NCBI GenBank assembly: GCA_017466375.1
Contig: JAFTUH010000005.1
Location: 1-38,766, forward strand
Direction: 5' to 3'
DNA: 38,766 bases
DNA from: Clostridia bacterium
Lineage (GTDB): Bacteria; Bacillota; Clostridia; Oscillospirales; CAG-272
The notes beneath the pieces were generated by a model. It was not told the DNA's origin. It saw only the letters and a program-made list of their open reading frames with translations, and searched no databases. Both the position numbers and the translations under genes were made by a program. Shown here in pieces: positions 6,422 to 29,949 of this stretch (position 1 is the stretch's first letter; every line of letters begins with the position of its first letter).

Positions 6422-9400
6422 TTAGTGCAGCTGAATGCGCACAGGGGTGTACGAGCTCGATCCGGTATCCAGCATGAGCCATACGTACTTATAAGAGGCA
6501 CCTGCCGTTACGTCGATGAAGTTCGATGCACCCTTGGTAACCGGCTGGGCATCGCCAATACCGTTCTGCACCTGGTAGGGATACGTTCCCGTAAAGGTTG
6601 CGTTCGTATACGTTGTGTTGGAGTTCGTGTAGAAATACTTCAGCGTACCGGTAATATTCGGCGTGAAGAAAATGAGAACGCCCTCCAGATCAGGATCAGA
6701 TGCAAATCCGGTTGCAGAGGACGGCTGTGTGCCTGTATTCCCCGTACCGCCGGAGAGCGGAACGAAGATCGGCTCCGTCGTCGTGGTGCCGTTATCCATC
6801 CAGACAACGATATTCTTGAGGGTCTTAACGTGCTCGCCTGCCGCCGTTGCCGTGGGGATATACAGCTTCTGCGGGGTAAGGGAGGTAACCTGCAGCGTAC
6901 CCGAGGTGATCGCTATGTACTCCAGCTCCTCGAGAGACTGGCTGAAATCACCGATCGAATCCGTATTGGTGAAGTAGTAGCGGAGCTGACCTGTCATCTT
7001 CGGATAGAAGTTAAGGTAATCACCGCTGACGTACGGCGTGGTGTAGAAGCCTGTGCCGATCGTAGTCGTGCCGGACGTTGTTCCGCTTACGGGAATAACG
7101 ATCGGCTGGCAGAACGGCGTCTCATTCGTAGCGACGTTCGACTTCTGGAGCATCAGAACGAGGTAGGAGTAGCCGATCGGCGCCGTAATCGTCTTCGTTC
7201 CGCTGCCCGCGTTTACAGAGAACGTACCGAGCATGCTGCCGGAAAGACCGGAGTTATAATACGTATTGACGAAGGATGCAGAATCCACAGGAGCCACGGA
7301 AGACGTGGAGAAGTAGTACAGGAGCTGACCTGCGGAGGTCATGTTATAAGTAAGTGCCAGAGACGAGCCGGTCAGCTTCGAGGTCGGTCTGACAGAGAAG
7401 CCCGTGCCGGACATATTCTCCGTTACCGTGCCGCCGCTGGTACCGCCGCTGGTGGATACCACGATGGGCAGATACTCTGTACCGGAACCGTCAACCAGCA
7501 TAAGGACGACGTATTTCGGCAGAATCTCATTGACAATCGTAATCTGGATGTTGTACGTCTTCTTACCGTTGATATAGAAGATACCTGCGTAGGAGCCGGT
7601 ACCGGAGCCCGCACTCATCTCCGCCTCAACGATGCGCTTGACGTCATCCGTCAGCGGAACGGTATTGCTGTCGGTGTAGTAGTAGTAGATCTTACCGCTG
7701 CTGACGCTCGGCGTTACCGTCGTCTGATGTGCTCTCTTGTACGGCGTGGAGCAGTACGGCGTACCGGTGAAGCCGGTCGTCGTGGGCTGTGCCTGTACAG
7801 GATCGTTCGTGCCGCCAACCAGCGGAATGAGCACCGGCGTCATTTTGGTCTGACCGATGACAGCCATGAGTACGATATAACTGGAGTTGATACCAATCTC
7901 GTTCTTGATAGCGGTCTTGATGTTCTGGGAGCCGGAGCGAAGCGTGCATGCGCCGCCGGACGGATCCTCCAGATACATACCGGTCTTGTTTGCCCAGTTC
8001 GTTTCGAACTCGGAAACACTCGGCGCAGATGCATTATTCGTGATGTAGTAGAAGAGCTGACCTGCGCTTGTTGCCTGCACAGTGAGGTAGAAATATCCGC
8101 TCGTCATATAGCTCGTGGGCGTAGACGAGAAGCCCGTACCTGCAAGATTTGCCGTACCTGCAACGGGGAGCACAACAAGTACCGGCTGGTACGTTACGCC
8201 CGACGCCGTCAGACGAAGCACCATATACTTATACGCCTGCGCTACCAGCTGATTGGACAAAGCATTGTAATAGGAATCCGGAGATACGCTGATGGAGCCC
8301 TTGGCAGATGCCGCGACAGCTGCATACGAGGTCGTGAACTGTTCCGAAGTCGGAAGCGTAGAGGATGTCGTGTAGTAATACTCAACGGTACCGACCTTTG
8401 AAGCGGCGAATCCGAGGAAGAGATCCTCACCGTTCTTCTGGACGAACGGTGCGGTGACGAAGCCGTTATCCGTAGCACCGACGTTCGTGCCGCTCTTGGA
8501 GATCACGACGGGCTGGAAGCGGTTTCCGCTTGCATCCATCACGATTACGACGAGATACGGATATCCTGCGACGTTGCTGGTCAGCACGGTATTCTTAGAA
8601 GCCTGCTGATTTGCATTGACGGACAGCTCACCCTTATAGACAGCAGCGTTGTGCATCGTGGAGAACGTATCCACCGTAGGTGCGGTATTCGTCTTTGCGT
8701 AGTAGTAGTAGACGTAGCCCTTAACGGTAGGCTTCACAGTCAGCTTATCATACGTACCGCTGACGGTGAGCGTGGGCGTAGCCGTAAAGCCGGAGGATGC
8801 TCTGTTCGGAAGAACGACCGGCTGATATTTCGTCGTTCCGCTCGAATTCTGGAGCATTACAACAACGTAGGAATATGCGGAAATAACGGAGGCGGTACCG
8901 ACATCCTTATCAAACGGTACGTTTGCCGTTGCAAGGAAGCTATCCTTAACGGAAGCCGCATTGTACAGGCTCGTAAAGTTCGACGCGGTGGGAACGGATG
9001 CAGTATTCGTATAATAGTAGTAGACCTTACCGTCAACCGAAGGCTTACCGGTCAAATATCCGTTCGCAGTGGTGGTATACATCGTAGGAGCAACAGCAAA
9101 GCCGGAAGCACTTGCATCTGCCGAGCCGGTGTAGGAGGTGCCGGCAAACGATGCGCTCAGACCGGAGGCAACCGTGTACTTACCGGGCATCATCTCTGCC
9201 TTGAAGCCGGATGCATTGACAGTCACGCCCTTGAGCGTACCGGAACCGGTCAGCGTAGAGTTCTTCGCACCGCTTGCAACCGTCATCGCGGTTACCTCAG
9301 TACCCGAAGCCGCACTTGCCTTGACGGGCGTCTTCGCGTTCAGAGCAGCAACCTTCGTGCCCTCGTTCAGCGTTACGTTCACCGTATAGGCACTGTCCGT

Positions 9401-10243
9401 GCAGTCAACGATCAGCGTCTTGACGTCGCAGTCAGTGAAGGTCACGGACGAGCTGCCGCGGATGATTACCGTCTCCAGATCGCATCCGCTGAGCATGACA
9501 ACGCCGCCGGACGCACCCTCGGTGATATACAGCTCACCGGCGATCTCCGCGTTGTTGACGATCACGCCGGACTTGGCGATGACTGCATTGGCAGCCGCAG
9601 CGCCTGCATCGGTGCCCGTTGCGGACGCTTTATAGATCGTACCTGCGGCGCGATAAAGGATCGCTGCCGCCTCGCATCTTCTGAGGACACGGGTGGGACT
9701 GAAATTGCCCGTCTCGTCGCCGTTGAAGAGCCCTTCATATGTAGCCTGCAGAACGTAGTCCTGATACTTGATCTTGATAGTGCCGTAATCCTTGTACGTG
9801 GACGAGGGAGATTTCTTGCTCTCATCCAGCGCGAGATAGCGGACAAGCAGTGCCGCTGCCTCCTCACGCGTCAGCTGACCGTTCGGATCCAGCTCCGTGC
9901 CGTAATTCAAAAGGAATCCCTGCGCGGCAGCCTTCTGCACGTACGGATAGAACCAGTCCGTCGATTTGACGTCGGTATAGTTGACCGTCGCCGTCTTCGT
10001 AAGACCGAACGTCTCAACGATCATCTTAATAAACTGGACGCGGGTAACGGGATCCGCGGGACGGAACGTATTGTCCTCCGCATAGCCGTTCAGAACGCCT
10101 TTCTCCACCATGTAGTTGATCTGGCTCTTCGCCCACGAGACAGAGCTCGGCCACTTTGCCTCATCGGCAAACGCAGCGAACACTGCCGGCACAGACGAAA
10201 CCAGCATCCATACAGCAAGGAAGAGGGATAAAACCTTTTTCAT
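6422..10243 (-). CDS. SLH-domain surface protein with eight Tyr-rich repeats
   Basis: A 1273-residue secreted protein. Residues 1-26 are a signal peptide ending near VFAAFA. Three S-layer homology domains follow (about 28-80, 88-140, 150-202), which bind pyruvylated secondary wall polysaccharide. Residues about 225-380 are rich in short beta strands with regularly placed Val, Ile and Thr, resembling a parallel beta helix or beta roll. From 380 to the C-terminus there are eight repeats of about 95-125 residues, each opening with GF..xP, then an aromatic YYYxT strand, then Y.YVVLML and a closing xPVxIP. I do not recognise the repeat. No sortase motif, catalytic motif or transmembrane helix is visible after the signal, so a structural or adhesive role is likely. 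ATG 10243 was chosen from the signal peptide and an upstream GGAGAA; the frame is open above it to 10339. Confidence 0.88.
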   Translation of the reverse strand: MKKVLSLFLAVWMLVSSVPAVFAAFADEAKWPSSVSWAKSQINYMVEKGVLNGYAEDNTFRPADPVTRVQFIKMIVETFGLTKTATVNYTDVKSTDWFYPYVQKAAAQGFLLNYGTELDPNGQLTREEAAALLVRYLALDESKKSPSSTYKDYGTIKIKYQDYVLQATYEGLFNGDETGNFSPTRVLRRCEAAAILYRAAGTIYKASATGTDAGAAAANAVIAKSGVIVNNAEIAGELYITEGASGGVVMLSGCDLETVIIRGSSSVTFTDCDVKTLIVDCTDSAYTVNVTLNEGTKVAALNAKTPVKASAASGTEVTAMTVASGAKNSTLTGSGTLKGVTVNASGFKAEMMPGKYTVASGLSASFAGTSYTGSADASASGFAVAPTMYTTTANGYLTGKPSVDGKVYYYYTNTASVPTASNFTSLYNAASVKDSFLATANVPFDKDVGTASVISAYSYVVVMLQNSSGTTKYQPVVLPNRASSGFTATPTLTVSGTYDKLTVKPTVKGYVYYYYAKTNTAPTVDTFSTMHNAAVYKGELSVNANQQASKNTVLTSNVAGYPYLVVIVMDASGNRFQPVVISKSGTNVGATDNGFVTAPFVQKNGEDLFLGFAASKVGTVEYYYTTSSTLPTSEQFTTSYAAVAASAKGSISVSPDSYYNALSNQLVAQAYKYMVLRLTASGVTYQPVLVVLPVAGTANLAGTGFSSTPTSYMTSGYFYLTVQATSAGQLFYYITNNASAPSVSEFETNWANKTGMYLEDPSGGACTLRSGSQNIKTAIKNEIGINSSYIVLMAVIGQTKMTPVLIPLVGGTNDPVQAQPTTTGFTGTPYCSTPYKRAHQTTVTPSVSSGKIYYYYTDSNTVPLTDDVKRIVEAEMSAGSGTGSYAGIFYINGKKTYNIQITIVNEILPKYVVLMLVDGSGTEYLPIVVSTSGGTSGGTVTENMSGTGFSVRPTSKLTGSSLALTYNMTSAGQLLYYFSTSSVAPVDSASFVNTYYNSGLSGSMLGTFSVNAGSGTKTITAPIGYSYLVLMLQKSNVATNETPFCQPIVIPVSGTTSGTTTIGTGFYTTPYVSGDYLNFYPKMTGQLRYYFTNTDSIGDFSQSLEELEYIAITSGTLQVTSLTPQKLYIPTATAAGEHVKTLKNIVVWMDNGTTTTEPIFVPLSGGTGNTGTQPSSATGFASDPDLEGVLIFFTPNITGTLKYFYTNSNTTYTNATFTGTYPYQVQNGIGDAQPVTKGASNFIDVTAGASYKYVWLMLDTGSSSYTPVRIQLH
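6425..9106 (-). repeat. Array of eight Tyr-rich protein repeats in the SLH protein
   Basis: Protein-level repeats, by residue of the 1273-residue product: 380-483, 484-592, 593-702, 703-822, 823-946, 947-1063, 1064-1177 and 1178-1273. Shared landmarks are a GF(x)3P start, a Gly two or three residues before (Y/F)YYxT or YYF.T, a following Asn/Ser and often Pro, Phe around 12-15 residues later, a Y.Y(V/L)VLML strand and an ending of the form PV(V/I)(I/L). The units are diverged at DNA level, so this is an old array rather than a recent tandem duplication. Confidence 0.8.
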
Positions 10244-10348
10244 GTGTGTATTCTCCGTTTCTTTATAATCCTTGTTATTGCCATCACGCATTTTCGGCGT
10301 CCGCCAAATTAGACAGATGCAGATTGTGCGCAAAAACACCTACTCTAT

Positions 10349-20195: not shown

Positions 20196-22748
20196 TTATT
20201 TGATGAACAGCTTCGTCGTGAGCATCGCGGGAATCAGCCAGAACAGCTGATTGGCGGCGACCATCCAAGATTTCAGCGCGCCGACGTTCTGCGACATCAT
20301 TACGATGACGAGCACCAGAAGCGATACGATCGCAGATACAATGCTGATGACCGTATTCGTGCCCTTGACGCTGAGCACCATATCGCAGTAGGAAAGCACC
20401 TGCAGAAGCGACTTCGTCGTGCCTCTCGTGACGATACCGGAATCGGCACGCTCAACCGCCTCGGTCCCCTCCGTATTGCGCACGATCTTCAAAGGATACT
20501 GCTTGCCGCGCACCTTGGAGAAGATCATCTCCTCGTCAATATTGGGATCCAGCGTCTTCACGCAGACGCACGTACCGCCCTTCGTAAACTGACGGAGGAT
20601 GAACTCGAAATCGGCATCCATACCGTAGCGGATGTACATCTTCGCGATCAGCGCACCGTCGCGCAGCATATACAGGATGCTGAGATCTCCCTGTACGTAC
20701 GAATCCTCCTCGACGACCTCGACGGGCACCTCAAATCCGAGTTCCGTAAGTACCGCCGAACGTCCGAACAGGATCTGTCTGCCGTCCACGCTTGTTTCGA
20801 GATAGCCAACACCTGCCGAGAGGATATTCACGTCAGCAGAGCGCTCCATCTCCATCGTAGCGAGGGAGAACACGTCAGAAAGCGGTCCGCCGGCTGCACA
20901 GAATGCACTTGCCGCGTAATACAGCACGCGGTCAATGCGGTTGTTGTTGTAAATCTTGATGTTCTGCACCTTCACGCTGACGGAGGGGAAGACGTTCTTA
21001 TCGTCGAAGGAGACGATCGACGCGCCTGCGTACTCCTCAAGCGACGGCTCACCGACGATGGTACTGTCGTACTCATACGCCTCACGGTTCGCCTTATAGA
21101 AGGGATAGCTGTATGTAAAGAACATGGAAGCGGGCACGACACCGATCAGCGTCAGATACGCGATGGTGATCGCATCACGGGAGGTAGAGCCGCCGATCAT
21201 CGCAAAGACCGCCATCAGCACAGCGGCGGCAACGATGCACGAAAGCATAGCGCCTACATAGATGCGGGTACTGTTCAGAATCGCCCCGGTACGGGCAAAG
21301 TATCCGTCCACGAAATCCGCGCGGGTGATGCGGAGCACGTCGGGACTGCCCTCCTCCGTTGCACCGAAGACACGGCTTTCCTCGGAATTCTCCGTAGCCT
21401 CGATCCGGTTAAACACGTACTTCTGCCGTTTGGAAGAAACGATATTGAAGCTGAACGCCTCCCGCTTCGTATTGAAGTAGGTGAAGATGAGTGACAAAAG
21501 CGCGACAACGGCAACGGGGAAATTGTAGAGCACCGGCTCGCCGCCCGCAGACGGATTCGCAATCACGGCAAGGATCACGGAATACACGACAGCGAACACG
21601 CTCAGAACGGACAATACGCTCTCCGGCGTCGGACGCATCGTGACCAGATTGGTGAAGCCGGCGAAAATCTGCTCATACGCAAGTGCGCACACGAGAAGCA
21701 GCAGCTGCAGGCTCATCATGATATTCACCACGGGATACACCGCAGGATCCAGTGCGCCGCTGAACTGCACGCCGAACAGGGTAATATTCTCAAAGAAGAA
21801 CAGAAGCACCGTAAGAACTGCAGCCGCGATCATTTTGATCTTCAGGGATTTCAGCGCAAACTTATACGCATCGGCAATCTGCGGGATCTGCGAACGGTCC
21901 GTGTACTCGTATTCGAGCGCCTGCTTCTGCTGACGGCTGTACTCCTTCTGCTCATCCTTCAAACGGTCAGCGGCCTTATCCGCCGAGCCTTTACCCATCT
22001 TTTTATCGAGCTGATCCTCCATACCGAGGGCAACCCACAGGCTGATATCCTTTTCATCCATACCGGACGTATCGATGACGTCCTCACCGGGAGTCTCCTC
22101 CCCGTCGATTGCCACGAATCCGCCGTCTGTTTCTACCTCCGCGTCTTCGGAAGCGGACTCCGCGTCGGCGTCCTCGTCCTGCGCGGAAGCAGACTCCGCT
22201 GCGGGGGCAAAAATCCCCTCTCTGTCCTCAGCGGGAGCGCTCTCGCTCTCCTCAACCAGCTCGGAGAAAATCTCGCTGTCGGGAGCGGCGGATTCCTCCT
22301 CCGGCTCCTCGTGGTGCAAGAGACGGGCAAACAAACCGCCCAGCTTCTTGCGCGGCACGGACTCTTCCTCCGCAGGCGCATCCGCCGGCTCTTCCGCAGG
22401 CTGTTCTTCGGGCAGATCAGCCGTCTCTTCAGACTCCTCGGGAGTTGCCTCCTCCGCGCTGTCCTCACCGAACCACACAAACGGCTCCTCACCGTTTTCT
22501 TCCTCGGTCTCCTCCTCTACGGCAAGAGACGGGAGCTCGTCCACTTCCTCCGTTACCACGGGAGCAGACGCCTCCGCAGCCGGCTTATCAGATTTCTCCT
22601 CCGAATAATTGGGGAGATATTTTTTCAAGAGGTCCTGAATATTGAGTTCGCTGTCTCCTCCGGCATCAGCAGGCGCCGCGGGATCTGCCGTCACAGCATC
22701 TCTCACATCGCGCTCATCGTTCTGTGCGGAATTGAATTTTGTACTCAT
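20196..22748 (-). CDS. Degenerate P-type-ATPase-like membrane protein with acidic N-terminal tail
   Basis: This 850-residue protein has two halves. Residues 1 to about 270 are disordered and very acidic (runs of Glu, Ala, Pro, Ser). Residues about 300-850 have eight hydrophobic segments (near 305-322, 340-360, 378-398, 408-424, 498-517, 527-547, 800-818, 828-846) around a large cytoplasmic part, the layout of a heavy-metal-type P-type ATPase. Just after the sixth segment, where such enzymes have FDKTGTLT, there is F581-DDKNVFP: the Asp is present but the KTGT motif is lost. No TGES-type motif is seen, and the hinge GDN region reads KTLDPNID. It is therefore probably not an active pump. Start at ATG 22748, 52 bases after rlmB. 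Function unknown; assignment is by eye. Confidence 0.7.
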   Translation of the reverse strand: MSTKFNSAQNDERDVRDAVTADPAAPADAGGDSELNIQDLLKKYLPNYSEEKSDKPAAEASAPVVTEEVDELPSLAVEEETEEENGEEPFVWFGEDSAEEATPEESEETADLPEEQPAEEPADAPAEEESVPRKKLGGLFARLLHHEEPEEESAAPDSEIFSELVEESESAPAEDREGIFAPAAESASAQDEDADAESASEDAEVETDGGFVAIDGEETPGEDVIDTSGMDEKDISLWVALGMEDQLDKKMGKGSADKAADRLKDEQKEYSRQQKQALEYEYTDRSQIPQIADAYKFALKSLKIKMIAAAVLTVLLFFFENITLFGVQFSGALDPAVYPVVNIMMSLQLLLLVCALAYEQIFAGFTNLVTMRPTPESVLSVLSVFAVVYSVILAVIANPSAGGEPVLYNFPVAVVALLSLIFTYFNTKREAFSFNIVSSKRQKYVFNRIEATENSEESRVFGATEEGSPDVLRITRADFVDGYFARTGAILNSTRIYVGAMLSCIVAAAVLMAVFAMIGGSTSRDAITIAYLTLIGVVPASMFFTYSYPFYKANREAYEYDSTIVGEPSLEEYAGASIVSFDDKNVFPSVSVKVQNIKIYNNNRIDRVLYYAASAFCAAGGPLSDVFSLATMEMERSADVNILSAGVGYLETSVDGRQILFGRSAVLTELGFEVPVEVVEEDSYVQGDLSILYMLRDGALIAKMYIRYGMDADFEFILRQFTKGGTCVCVKTLDPNIDEEMIFSKVRGKQYPLKIVRNTEGTEAVERADSGIVTRGTTKSLLQVLSYCDMVLSVKGTNTVISIVSAIVSLLVLVIVMMSQNVGALKSWMVAANQLFWLIPAMLTTKLFIK

Positions 22749-22800: not shown

Positions 22801-23667
22801 TCACGTGCGCTGCATCCGTGCCGCATGACACAGAATCACAGATGCCGCGGTCGATACGTTCAAAGAGTTGACCTTGCCGTACATCGGAATCGAGACGATG
22901 AAATCACTTTTCTCGCGGACGAGGCGGCTGACGCCCTCCCCTTCGCTTCCGAGCACGATCGCGGCCGGCGTATTGAAATCCGTTTCGTAATACGGAGTGC
23001 CTCCCGCCTCCGCGGTGAAGATCCACAGTCCCATTTCCTTGAGCTGCTCGATCGTCGCGGCGATATTCTGCACCTTGGCAATCGCCATATGTTCAAGTGC
23101 ACCGGCAGACGCGTTCGTGACGACGGGGGTAAGTCCGACCGCACGCCGCTTCGGCAGGATAAGTCCGTGTGCACCGGCGCATTCGGCACAGCGGATAACC
23201 GCACCGAGATTATGCGGATCCTCAATGCCGTCCGCGATGACGATCAGCGGCTTCTCACCGCGATCACGCGCGATCTGCACGATCTCCTCAACGGTAACGT
23301 ACTGCTTTTCCGCCGCCATTGCCGCGACGCCCTGATGATGGGCACCGCAGGTCATATTATCCAGCTTCTGACCGTCCGTTTCGATCACGGGGATACCGAG
23401 GCGGATCGCCTCCGCCACAATGACGGTAATCGATCCCTCTCGGTCGCCGGCGCGGACGAAGATTTTATCGACCGATCTGCCGGATTTGAGAAGCTCCCGC
23501 ACAGAATTCCGTCCGCAGACGATATTCTCGGGGGCAGTCGCTTCCTGCCGCGGCTCTCTTGGCGGACGGTGCTCGGACCGATCGCCGCGATCACCCTTAC
23601 GGGGACGGTTGTCATACGATTTTTTTCCGTTTGCGCCATAGCGGCGCTTCTGCGTAAATTCAGGCAT
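22801..23667 (-). CDS. rlmB: TrmH-family RNA 2'-O-methyltransferase (RlmB-like)
   Basis: This 288-residue SPOUT methyltransferase very likely makes Gm2251 or a similar modification in 23S rRNA. A basic, disordered N-terminal tail (1-46) precedes the substrate-binding domain (about 47-125, NIVCGRNSVRELL) and the catalytic domain. The three SPOUT motifs are present: N153 and R159 in DPHNLGAVIR, LGSEGEGVSRLV at 239-250 and the knot motif IPMYGKVNSLNVSTAAS at 260-276. The ATG at 23667 has only a weak ribosome binding site. A TATAAT lies at 23727-23722 without a good -35. The P-type-ATPase-like gene follows and is probably cotranscribed. Specificity between RlmB and other TrmH paralogues is inferred from domain layout. 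Confidence 0.88.
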   Translation of the reverse strand: MPEFTQKRRYGANGKKSYDNRPRKGDRGDRSEHRPPREPRQEATAPENIVCGRNSVRELLKSGRSVDKIFVRAGDREGSITVIVAEAIRLGIPVIETDGQKLDNMTCGAHHQGVAAMAAEKQYVTVEEIVQIARDRGEKPLIVIADGIEDPHNLGAVIRCAECAGAHGLILPKRRAVGLTPVVTNASAGALEHMAIAKVQNIAATIEQLKEMGLWIFTAEAGGTPYYETDFNTPAAIVLGSEGEGVSRLVREKSDFIVSIPMYGKVNSLNVSTAASVILCHAARMQRT

Positions 23668-28722: not shown

Positions 28723-29949
28723 ATGACCGATAAAACCGCTCAGAAATACGCGGGCATCCCGCCCAATACGGAGTGCCGCGCGCTCGTTCCGTACGTACCG
28801 CCGAACGATGTGGGCAAAAGATCGCCCGGCACACGTCTTCTCACGTTCGTCTGCGCGATCTGCTGCCTGTTCTCACTGATGCTCGTATTCGTAAATGTGA
28901 TGCTGACGACGGACAACGTAACCCCCGCGGACGTCTTCTTGCGCCTCGCGGAGAGCGCTTTTCTCGGCATGGCAGAGATCACCCCCGTACAGCAGGCAGA
29001 CGTGCCATCCTTCCCCGTCACCGATCCGTCGGAGAGCGCGGAAACGGACAGCGCGCTTTCGCCTGCCGTACCGCCTGACACCTCATCCGACACGGATACG
29101 GACAATCCGCCCGTACAAAACGAGCCGACATACCCGATCGAGGCAGCGGACGTCAGCTGCGGCGGTGATGTGTACGCGCTCTACAACGAAACCGCCTACG
29201 AGCCGGATCTTGCGGCACTGCTCAAAGCGCCGCTGACGCTGTCCCCGCAAACAGCAGACGCCCCGTACATTCTGATTATCCACACGCACGGCACGGAGGC
29301 ATACACCGCCGCAGGTACGGATACATACACAGCCGAGGACACGTTCCGCTCGACGGATATGGCAGAGAACGTCGTCGCCGTCGGTGCGGTCATGGCGGAA
29401 TATTTTGAATCCGCAGGCATCCCGACCGTCCATGTGACGGAGATGTTCGACGCGGTCTCCTACACGGATTCATACGCCCTTGCCGCCGAAGCGATCCGCG
29501 CGTATCTCGCAAAATATCCGTCCATACAGATCGTGCTGGACGTGCACCGCGACTCGATCATCCGTACGGACAATACAAAAATCCGTCCCGTGACAACGAT
29601 CGGCGGCGAGGACGTCGCGCAGTTCATGATCGTTGCGGGAACGGATTACAAAGGGGCAAATCACCCGTACTGGCGGGAAAATCTTTCCTTCGCCCTGAAG
29701 ATTCAGGAAAATCTGATCGAAAGTGCTCCGCATTTTGCACGTGCGATCAATCTGCGCGGTGCCGCCTTCAATCAGCAGTACACGAAGGGATCGCTTCTTC
29801 TGGAGATCGGCTCGTGCGGCAACACACTTGAGGAAGCAAAGCGCGCGGGGAAGCTGGCAGCACAGGCGATCGCGACGGTTTTGAAGGAATCGGGACAGAC
29901 GAAACGCCCGATCACACTCACGGCATCGTTTGCACCGCGCGCGGATTAA
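28723..29949 (+). CDS. spoIIP: Stage II sporulation protein P
   Basis: This 408-residue protein is the amidase/endopeptidase part of the DMP complex that thins septal peptidoglycan to drive engulfment. It has a cytoplasmic N-terminus, a membrane anchor (about 38-62), a Pro/Ser/Thr/Asp-rich linker (about 95-140) and the catalytic domain from about 180, with H187-T-H189 in LIIHTHGTEAY, H275 in VLDVHRDSI and E361 in GSLLLEIGSCGN, the pattern of zinc amidases. GGAG precedes the ATG. It is in an operon with gpr, and its end overlaps the convergent HAD gene by 4 bases. Confidence 0.96.
   Translation: MTDKTAQKYAGIPPNTECRALVPYVPPNDVGKRSPGTRLLTFVCAICCLFSLMLVFVNVMLTTDNVTPADVFLRLAESAFLGMAEITPVQQADVPSFPVTDPSESAETDSALSPAVPPDTSSDTDTDNPPVQNEPTYPIEAADVSCGGDVYALYNETAYEPDLAALLKAPLTLSPQTADAPYILIIHTHGTEAYTAAGTDTYTAEDTFRSTDMAENVVAVGAVMAEYFESAGIPTVHVTEMFDAVSYTDSYALAAEAIRAYLAKYPSIQIVLDVHRDSIIRTDNTKIRPVTTIGGEDVAQFMIVAGTDYKGANHPYWRENLSFALKIQENLIESAPHFARAINLRGAAFNQQYTKGSLLLEIGSCGNTLEEAKRAGKLAAQAIATVLKESGQTKRPITLTASFAPRAD

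Follow-up and report, generated by a model that had tools for sequence, protein, structure and literature searches.

The window analysed here is a stretch of 38,766 nucleotides, and the gene under study occupies positions 20196..22748 on the (-) strand. It is an intact open reading frame with an ATG at 22748, and codes for a putative pseudo-P1B-ATPase of 850 amino acids; an alternative start at an upstream ATG would lengthen the product to 876 amino acids and overlap the adjacent rlmB gene. The latter (22801..23667, (-) strand) encodes a SpoU-family 23S rRNA methyltransferase with matches to Pfam PF00588 and PF08032, and in 33 to 35 of about 40 loci compared from some 25 families of the order it immediately precedes the pseudo-ATPase gene on its strand, usually at a distance of 60 nt or less; in genome G610 an rlmB-like frame is likewise found just upstream. 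The two genes are probably in the same operon and expressed from a shared transcript, and this linkage carries no functional inference and says nothing about the cell envelope. A search of the same 40 or so loci for other neighbours conserved across the order gave none besides rlmB, and the pseudo-ATPase gene has no conserved output-domain or regulator gene next to it. In some families the downstream position is taken by a gene that we assume, only from reading its sequence, to be EF-G-like (9 loci), or by a radical-SAM/DUF2344 gene (7 loci).

The protein begins with a long acidic tail (residues 1-272; 21933..22748, (-) strand) with 84 Asp or Glu residues compared to 21 Lys or Arg, and residues 1-227 are predicted to be disordered in the full-length model, with a pLDDT of about 30; the acidic, disordered stretch of about 270 residues that had been described ahead of the membrane part is thus confirmed. 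Within the tail is a candidate docking motif, SELNIQDLLKKYLPNYS (residues 33-49; 22602..22652, (-) strand). The first six transmembrane helices of the AlphaFold model (residues 285-560; 21069..21896, (-) strand) are interrupted by a reduced A-domain remnant (residues 443-488; 21285..21422, (-) strand) that lacks TGE(S), and are followed by the pseudo P and N domains (residues 561-778; 20415..21068, (-) strand), assigned from the model, the fold search and profile-profile alignment, and by the last two modelled transmembrane helices (residues 779-849; 20202..20414, (-) strand). The pseudo P and N domains contain the apparently dead phosphorylation site FDDKNVFP (residues 581-588; 20985..21008, (-) strand), which the alignments place at the position of FDKTGTLT, the sequence GGPL (residues 620-623; 20880..20891, (-) strand) at the position of the N-domain SEHP motif with the His lost, and TLDPNI (residues 732-737; 20538..20555, (-) strand) at the TGDN position, including Asp734.

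Searched as a single sequence the window protein is nearly silent. No Pfam or NCBIfam model reaches its curated cut-off, the match to TIGR01525 (E 0.0065) is far under the NCBIfam curated cut-off, and a single-sequence search of the PDB returned no match. The best Pfam match, TgpA_N (E 0.005), was set aside as it is under cut-off and found in one member only. Because these matches are weak, a family profile was needed to test the P-type-ATPase reading, and a profile of 54 members searched against the PDB by sequence identifies LpCopA with an E-value of 4e-34, a resemblance to P1B ATPases that is far beyond chance; profile-profile alignment (hhalign) with five true P1B pumps gives a probability of 99 and an E-value of 6e-18. 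The structural comparisons agree. The AlphaFold model of the core, built with 11 homologues (pLDDT 79.7), has LpCopA as its top PDB match (4bbj, Foldseek E 2.5e-18; 3rfu, VIA Z 23.6 across 487 residues), followed by ATP7B, HMA4 and ZntA, and the helix order in the model is that of the P1B pumps, with the insertion after the fourth helix, the P/N region after the sixth, and a final pair of helices. The P-type-ATPase-like core proposed in the sequence-only reading is therefore recovered as a predicted P1B ATPase fold.

The catalytic motifs are a different matter, as seen from a multiple alignment of 57 family members. DKTGT (scored as D[KR]TGT) is intact in 0/57, and its columns retain Lys in 0/57, Gly in 1/57, and the last Thr in 1/57. 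The multiple and profile-profile alignments both place FDDKNVFP without gaps on the FDKTGTLT of true P1B ATPases, such that D582 takes the column of the catalytic Asp and D583 that of the Lys, and the earlier assignment of F581-D582-D583-K-N-V-F-P to the P-type phosphorylation region holds in both. Conservation differs between the two acidic positions: D582 itself is not conserved, with Asp in the catalytic column in 24/57 members, the window protein included, but the neighbouring D583 is, with Asp in 50/57. Of the A domain only about 46 residues are left in the model, forming a short insertion between helices in which the TGES columns are gapped or unconserved, in agreement with the reported absence of TGES; a TGE[SA] string occurs somewhere in three members, in none of them at the aligned A-domain columns. 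The GDGxND hinge is deleted in all 57 members, and the identification of KTLDPNID as the hinge has to be revised, since T732-L-D734 corresponds to the TGD element, in which the Asp persists in 55/56 members and the Thr in 39/56. The His column of SEHP has His in 0/57 and Gly in 40/57, and the CPC columns keep Pro in 51/57, with Cys in 2/57 at the first Cys position and in 0/57 at the second; the window protein itself retains Pro539 of this motif and has substitutions at both Cys positions. Gly662, Tyr708 and Asp734 are nearly invariant across the family. With DKTGT, GDGxND, the SEHP His and CPC all gone, the description of a dead pump core stands, and phosphorylation, ATP binding, dephosphorylation and metal binding are predicted to be lost, ATP hydrolysis and metal transport being judged from these motifs. 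As a homologue of P1B ATPases that fails the motif-defined features of that family, the protein is best regarded from its sequence as a pseudoenzyme derived from a P-type ATPase, and not filed as one.

The gene is widespread in the order and close to single-copy. Homologues are present in 57/59 relatives, one copy each with rare exceptions, and the family profile finds the gene in 184 of 197 genomes sampled from the order (150 of the 155 of good quality), where the reading frame is, again with few exceptions, open; among the genomes scored as negative, at least one appears to have the gene truncated by the end of a contig (L151). In genomes sampled from the rest of the class, profile searches did not find the family; every match there was to an ordinary P-type ATPase and spanned no more than about 280 positions (E about 1e-35 or weaker). 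In the core, dN/dS between orthologues of the same genus is 0.09-0.22, at nearly saturated synonymous sites, and a 0.7-Mb genome that is 97% complete (G610; L214, G610:C4) retains the gene with a profile E-value of 2e-67. The relatives with homologues include metagenome-assembled genomes from sheep, goat, roe deer and rabbit samples, and one genome has two family copies (G015:C112 and G015:C92; L026 and L031), reflecting either a true duplication or mixed strains.

Because DKTGT is intact in no member and dN/dS is low, we regard the protein as a lineage-wide pseudoenzyme under purifying selection, and no orthologue was found with the intact motif that would make the window copy a simple decay product, which upholds its earlier description as a conserved protein. 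The degenerate catalytic motifs are what would be expected of a decaying copy without function, but decay of an ordinary pump is ruled out by the family-wide loss of the motifs, the retention in 184/197 genomes, the dN/dS values and the presence in the 0.7-Mb genome, and we give it a negligible probability. The near-universal occurrence, even in so small a genome, indicates that the pseudo-pump is probably important and lineage-specific in its role.

A short motif near the start of the acidic tail offers a lead to that role. FSLDDILAEF or a close form lies within the first 15-60 residues in many families, and most families of the order share it. The window's own family has the form S-x-D-E-L-L-K-K-L, which in the window protein reads LNIQDLLKKYLP, and the motif is the only helix of at least 4 residues among the first 227 of the full-length model (residues 37-44), at low confidence (pLDDT 43-48). 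A regular expression for the motif applied to 787 neighbourhood open reading frames gave 21 matches, 17 of them at the start of the pseudo-ATPase protein, and none at the terminus of any other protein.

A 16-position model of the motif (A3) was searched over the 197 genomes of the order. Apart from family members and their fragments at contig ends, it matched six proteins (E 2e-5 to 1.2e-2), all with the motif at a terminus. These are an ABC-2 permease (N-terminal) and its probable fragment (N-terminal), a second pseudo-P-type ATPase (N-terminal), LspA (C-terminal), a small membrane protein (C-terminal), and an LCP protein (N-terminal). VanW-domain proteins in four genomes have weaker N-terminal matches (E 0.03-0.35). 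The strong part of this recurrence is the LspA series: in 11 genera of family f14, LspA has a long C-terminal extension that looks disordered and closes with the motif, consensus [FY][SD]LEDILAEF, leaving 0-3 residues to the stop codon (L149, L200, L201, L203, L205-L210 and L212; the identity as LspA is by Pfam for four of the 11 genera). The C-terminus of LspA is cytoplasmic by the known topology of the enzyme. Beyond the order, genomes of the class give no match better than an E-value of 0.017, and in the sampled genomes the terminal peptide and the pseudo-pump share the same order-limited distribution. Single matches are not proof, because one internal match, in an RsmB-like methyltransferase, scored an E-value of 0.004. 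Internal or natural-sequence matches in proteins that we take from their sequences to be RadA, RlmB, aconitase, RsmB, SpoIIIAG and Hsp33 were treated as chance, and LCP proteins were rejected as a motif-bearing class (0/30 sampled loci, an approximate count as a few loci were read on the wrong strand). In the carrier classes other than LspA the motif is rare.

Several of these carriers are described further here. The ABC-2 permease is of the polysaccharide-export type (L125, 247-1569, (-) strand) and the probable fragment is from the N-terminus of a homologue (L158), both with the motif near the start and, after it, a long linker of low complexity. A two-helix membrane protein without a Pfam match (L150, 1830-2708, (-) strand; L143, 1489-2547, (-) strand) has a charged tail that ends YDIDDILxE/D. 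The second pseudo-P-type ATPase, of the NKTGT type, is real and was seen in one genus only, g240, in two genomes (L147, 538-2589, (-) strand, and L168). At the phosphorylation site one of them has FNKTGT and the other FSLSGT; HP and TGDN persist, and the motif is N-terminal.

The reading that we favour, to which we assign a little less than an even chance, is that a pseudo-P1B-ATPase has been reused as a membrane adaptor or scaffold, with a cytoplasmic partner shared with envelope machinery. A heavy-metal pump of the P1B, CopA-like type would have been captured in an ancestor of the order and converted to a non-catalytic membrane protein, with the eight-helix core and the folded P and N domains remaining as a platform. 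The long, acidic, flexible tail would reach into the cytoplasm and carry a short amphipathic helix as a docking peptide for a putative partner, and LspA in many genera, and sporadically an ABC exporter, VanW, LCP and two-helix proteins, would dock through the same peptide at a cytoplasmic terminus. We infer the sharing because other envelope membrane proteins carry the same terminal peptide, and this common motif lends circumstantial support, at the level of sequence, to the suggestion in the sequence-only reading of a scaffold or regulator tied to the envelope. Against an adaptor are the diverged motif of the window's own family, in which a search for a second carrier of the LNIQDLLKKYLP form gave none above background, the rarity of the motif in protein classes other than LspA, the internal methyltransferase match, which shows that the motif model also picks up chance sequences, and a gene linkage that is confined to rlmB.

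Other roles for the retained fold need to be weighed against the adaptor. It could be a sensor of a ligand or of membrane state, with the pseudo N and P domains taking up a metal, nucleotide or lipid and changing shape, no hydrolysis being involved, and the tail passing this on to a cytoplasmic signalling partner; persistence of the P/N fold and of the nearly invariant Gly662, Tyr708 and Asp734 despite lost catalysis suggests selection on the fold or its movement, but the CopA residues for ATP binding (the SEHP His) and metal binding (CPC) are lost in all members and there is no conserved output domain or regulator gene alongside, such that we consider a sensor unlikely. Somewhat more doubtful is that the pseudo-pump is itself the receptor, with its pseudo P and N domains binding the terminal peptide of its own tail in cis, which would be self-inhibitory, and that of LspA and other proteins of the envelope in trans, thereby organising lipoprotein processing and wall-polymer export. 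A regulatory subunit, a dead pump that pairs with or titrates the live P-type ATPases of the same cell, is improbable: a P-type ATPase A domain is indeed encoded at six further loci of the window's genome, and the five for which a KTGT-bearing frame was read keep both DKTGT and the TGE motif, but no pump gene recurs next to the pseudo-ATPase gene in about 40 loci and nothing in the data ties them together. Residual transport by an ATP-independent, non-canonical route through the membrane core would make use of the eight helices and the commonly kept Pro at the CPC position, but with the metal-coordinating Cys and all of the energising residues gone, and the conserved terminal motif left without a role, we think it very improbable.

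The adaptor candidate can be set beside several known systems. The P1B-type ATPases (CopA, ZntA; TIGR01525, PRK10671) share its fold, with eight helices, an insertion after helix 4, and P and N domains after helix 6, whereas the pseudo-pump is without DKTGT, GDGxND, TGE, SEHP and CPC, has a reduced A domain, and has a long acidic N-terminal tail in place of the P1B metal-binding domains. KdpB of KdpFABC, a structural match in the fold search of the core, is a P-type ATPase core within a larger assembly, but it keeps the catalytic residues that the pseudo-pump core lacks and hydrolyses ATP. The terminal motif can be compared to the FtsZ C-terminal peptide, a short docking peptide at the terminus of a bacterial protein; both are short, conserved, helix-forming ends of a disordered linker and presumed to bind protein, but the motif described here differs in sequence, is on membrane proteins, and would serve a hub that is putative.

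Pseudoenzymes made from P-type ATPases seem almost unknown in bacteria. Literature searches gave no paper on one, and no earlier description of either the pseudo-P1B-ATPase family or the terminal motif. The nearest published parallel found is Plasmodium guanylate cyclase beta, which also has a degenerate P-type ATPase domain, a P4-ATPase domain retained without most of its signature residues (PMC6592433); that domain is eukaryotic, of the P4 type and fused to a guanylate cyclase, whereas the pseudo-pump is of P1B type, stands alone, and is found across a bacterial order. A gene that nearly every genome of a large order of gut Clostridia carries in single copy has no Pfam or NCBIfam name, and the terminal peptide, by its recurrence, offers a direct experimental route to a possible membrane-organising hub shared with LspA.

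Elsewhere in the window, a 1305-amino acid open reading frame (6422-10339, (-) strand) contains three S-layer homology stretches, and a SpoIIP domain protein is encoded at 28723-29949 on the (+) strand, which suggests that some or all of the sporulation genes may be present in the organism.
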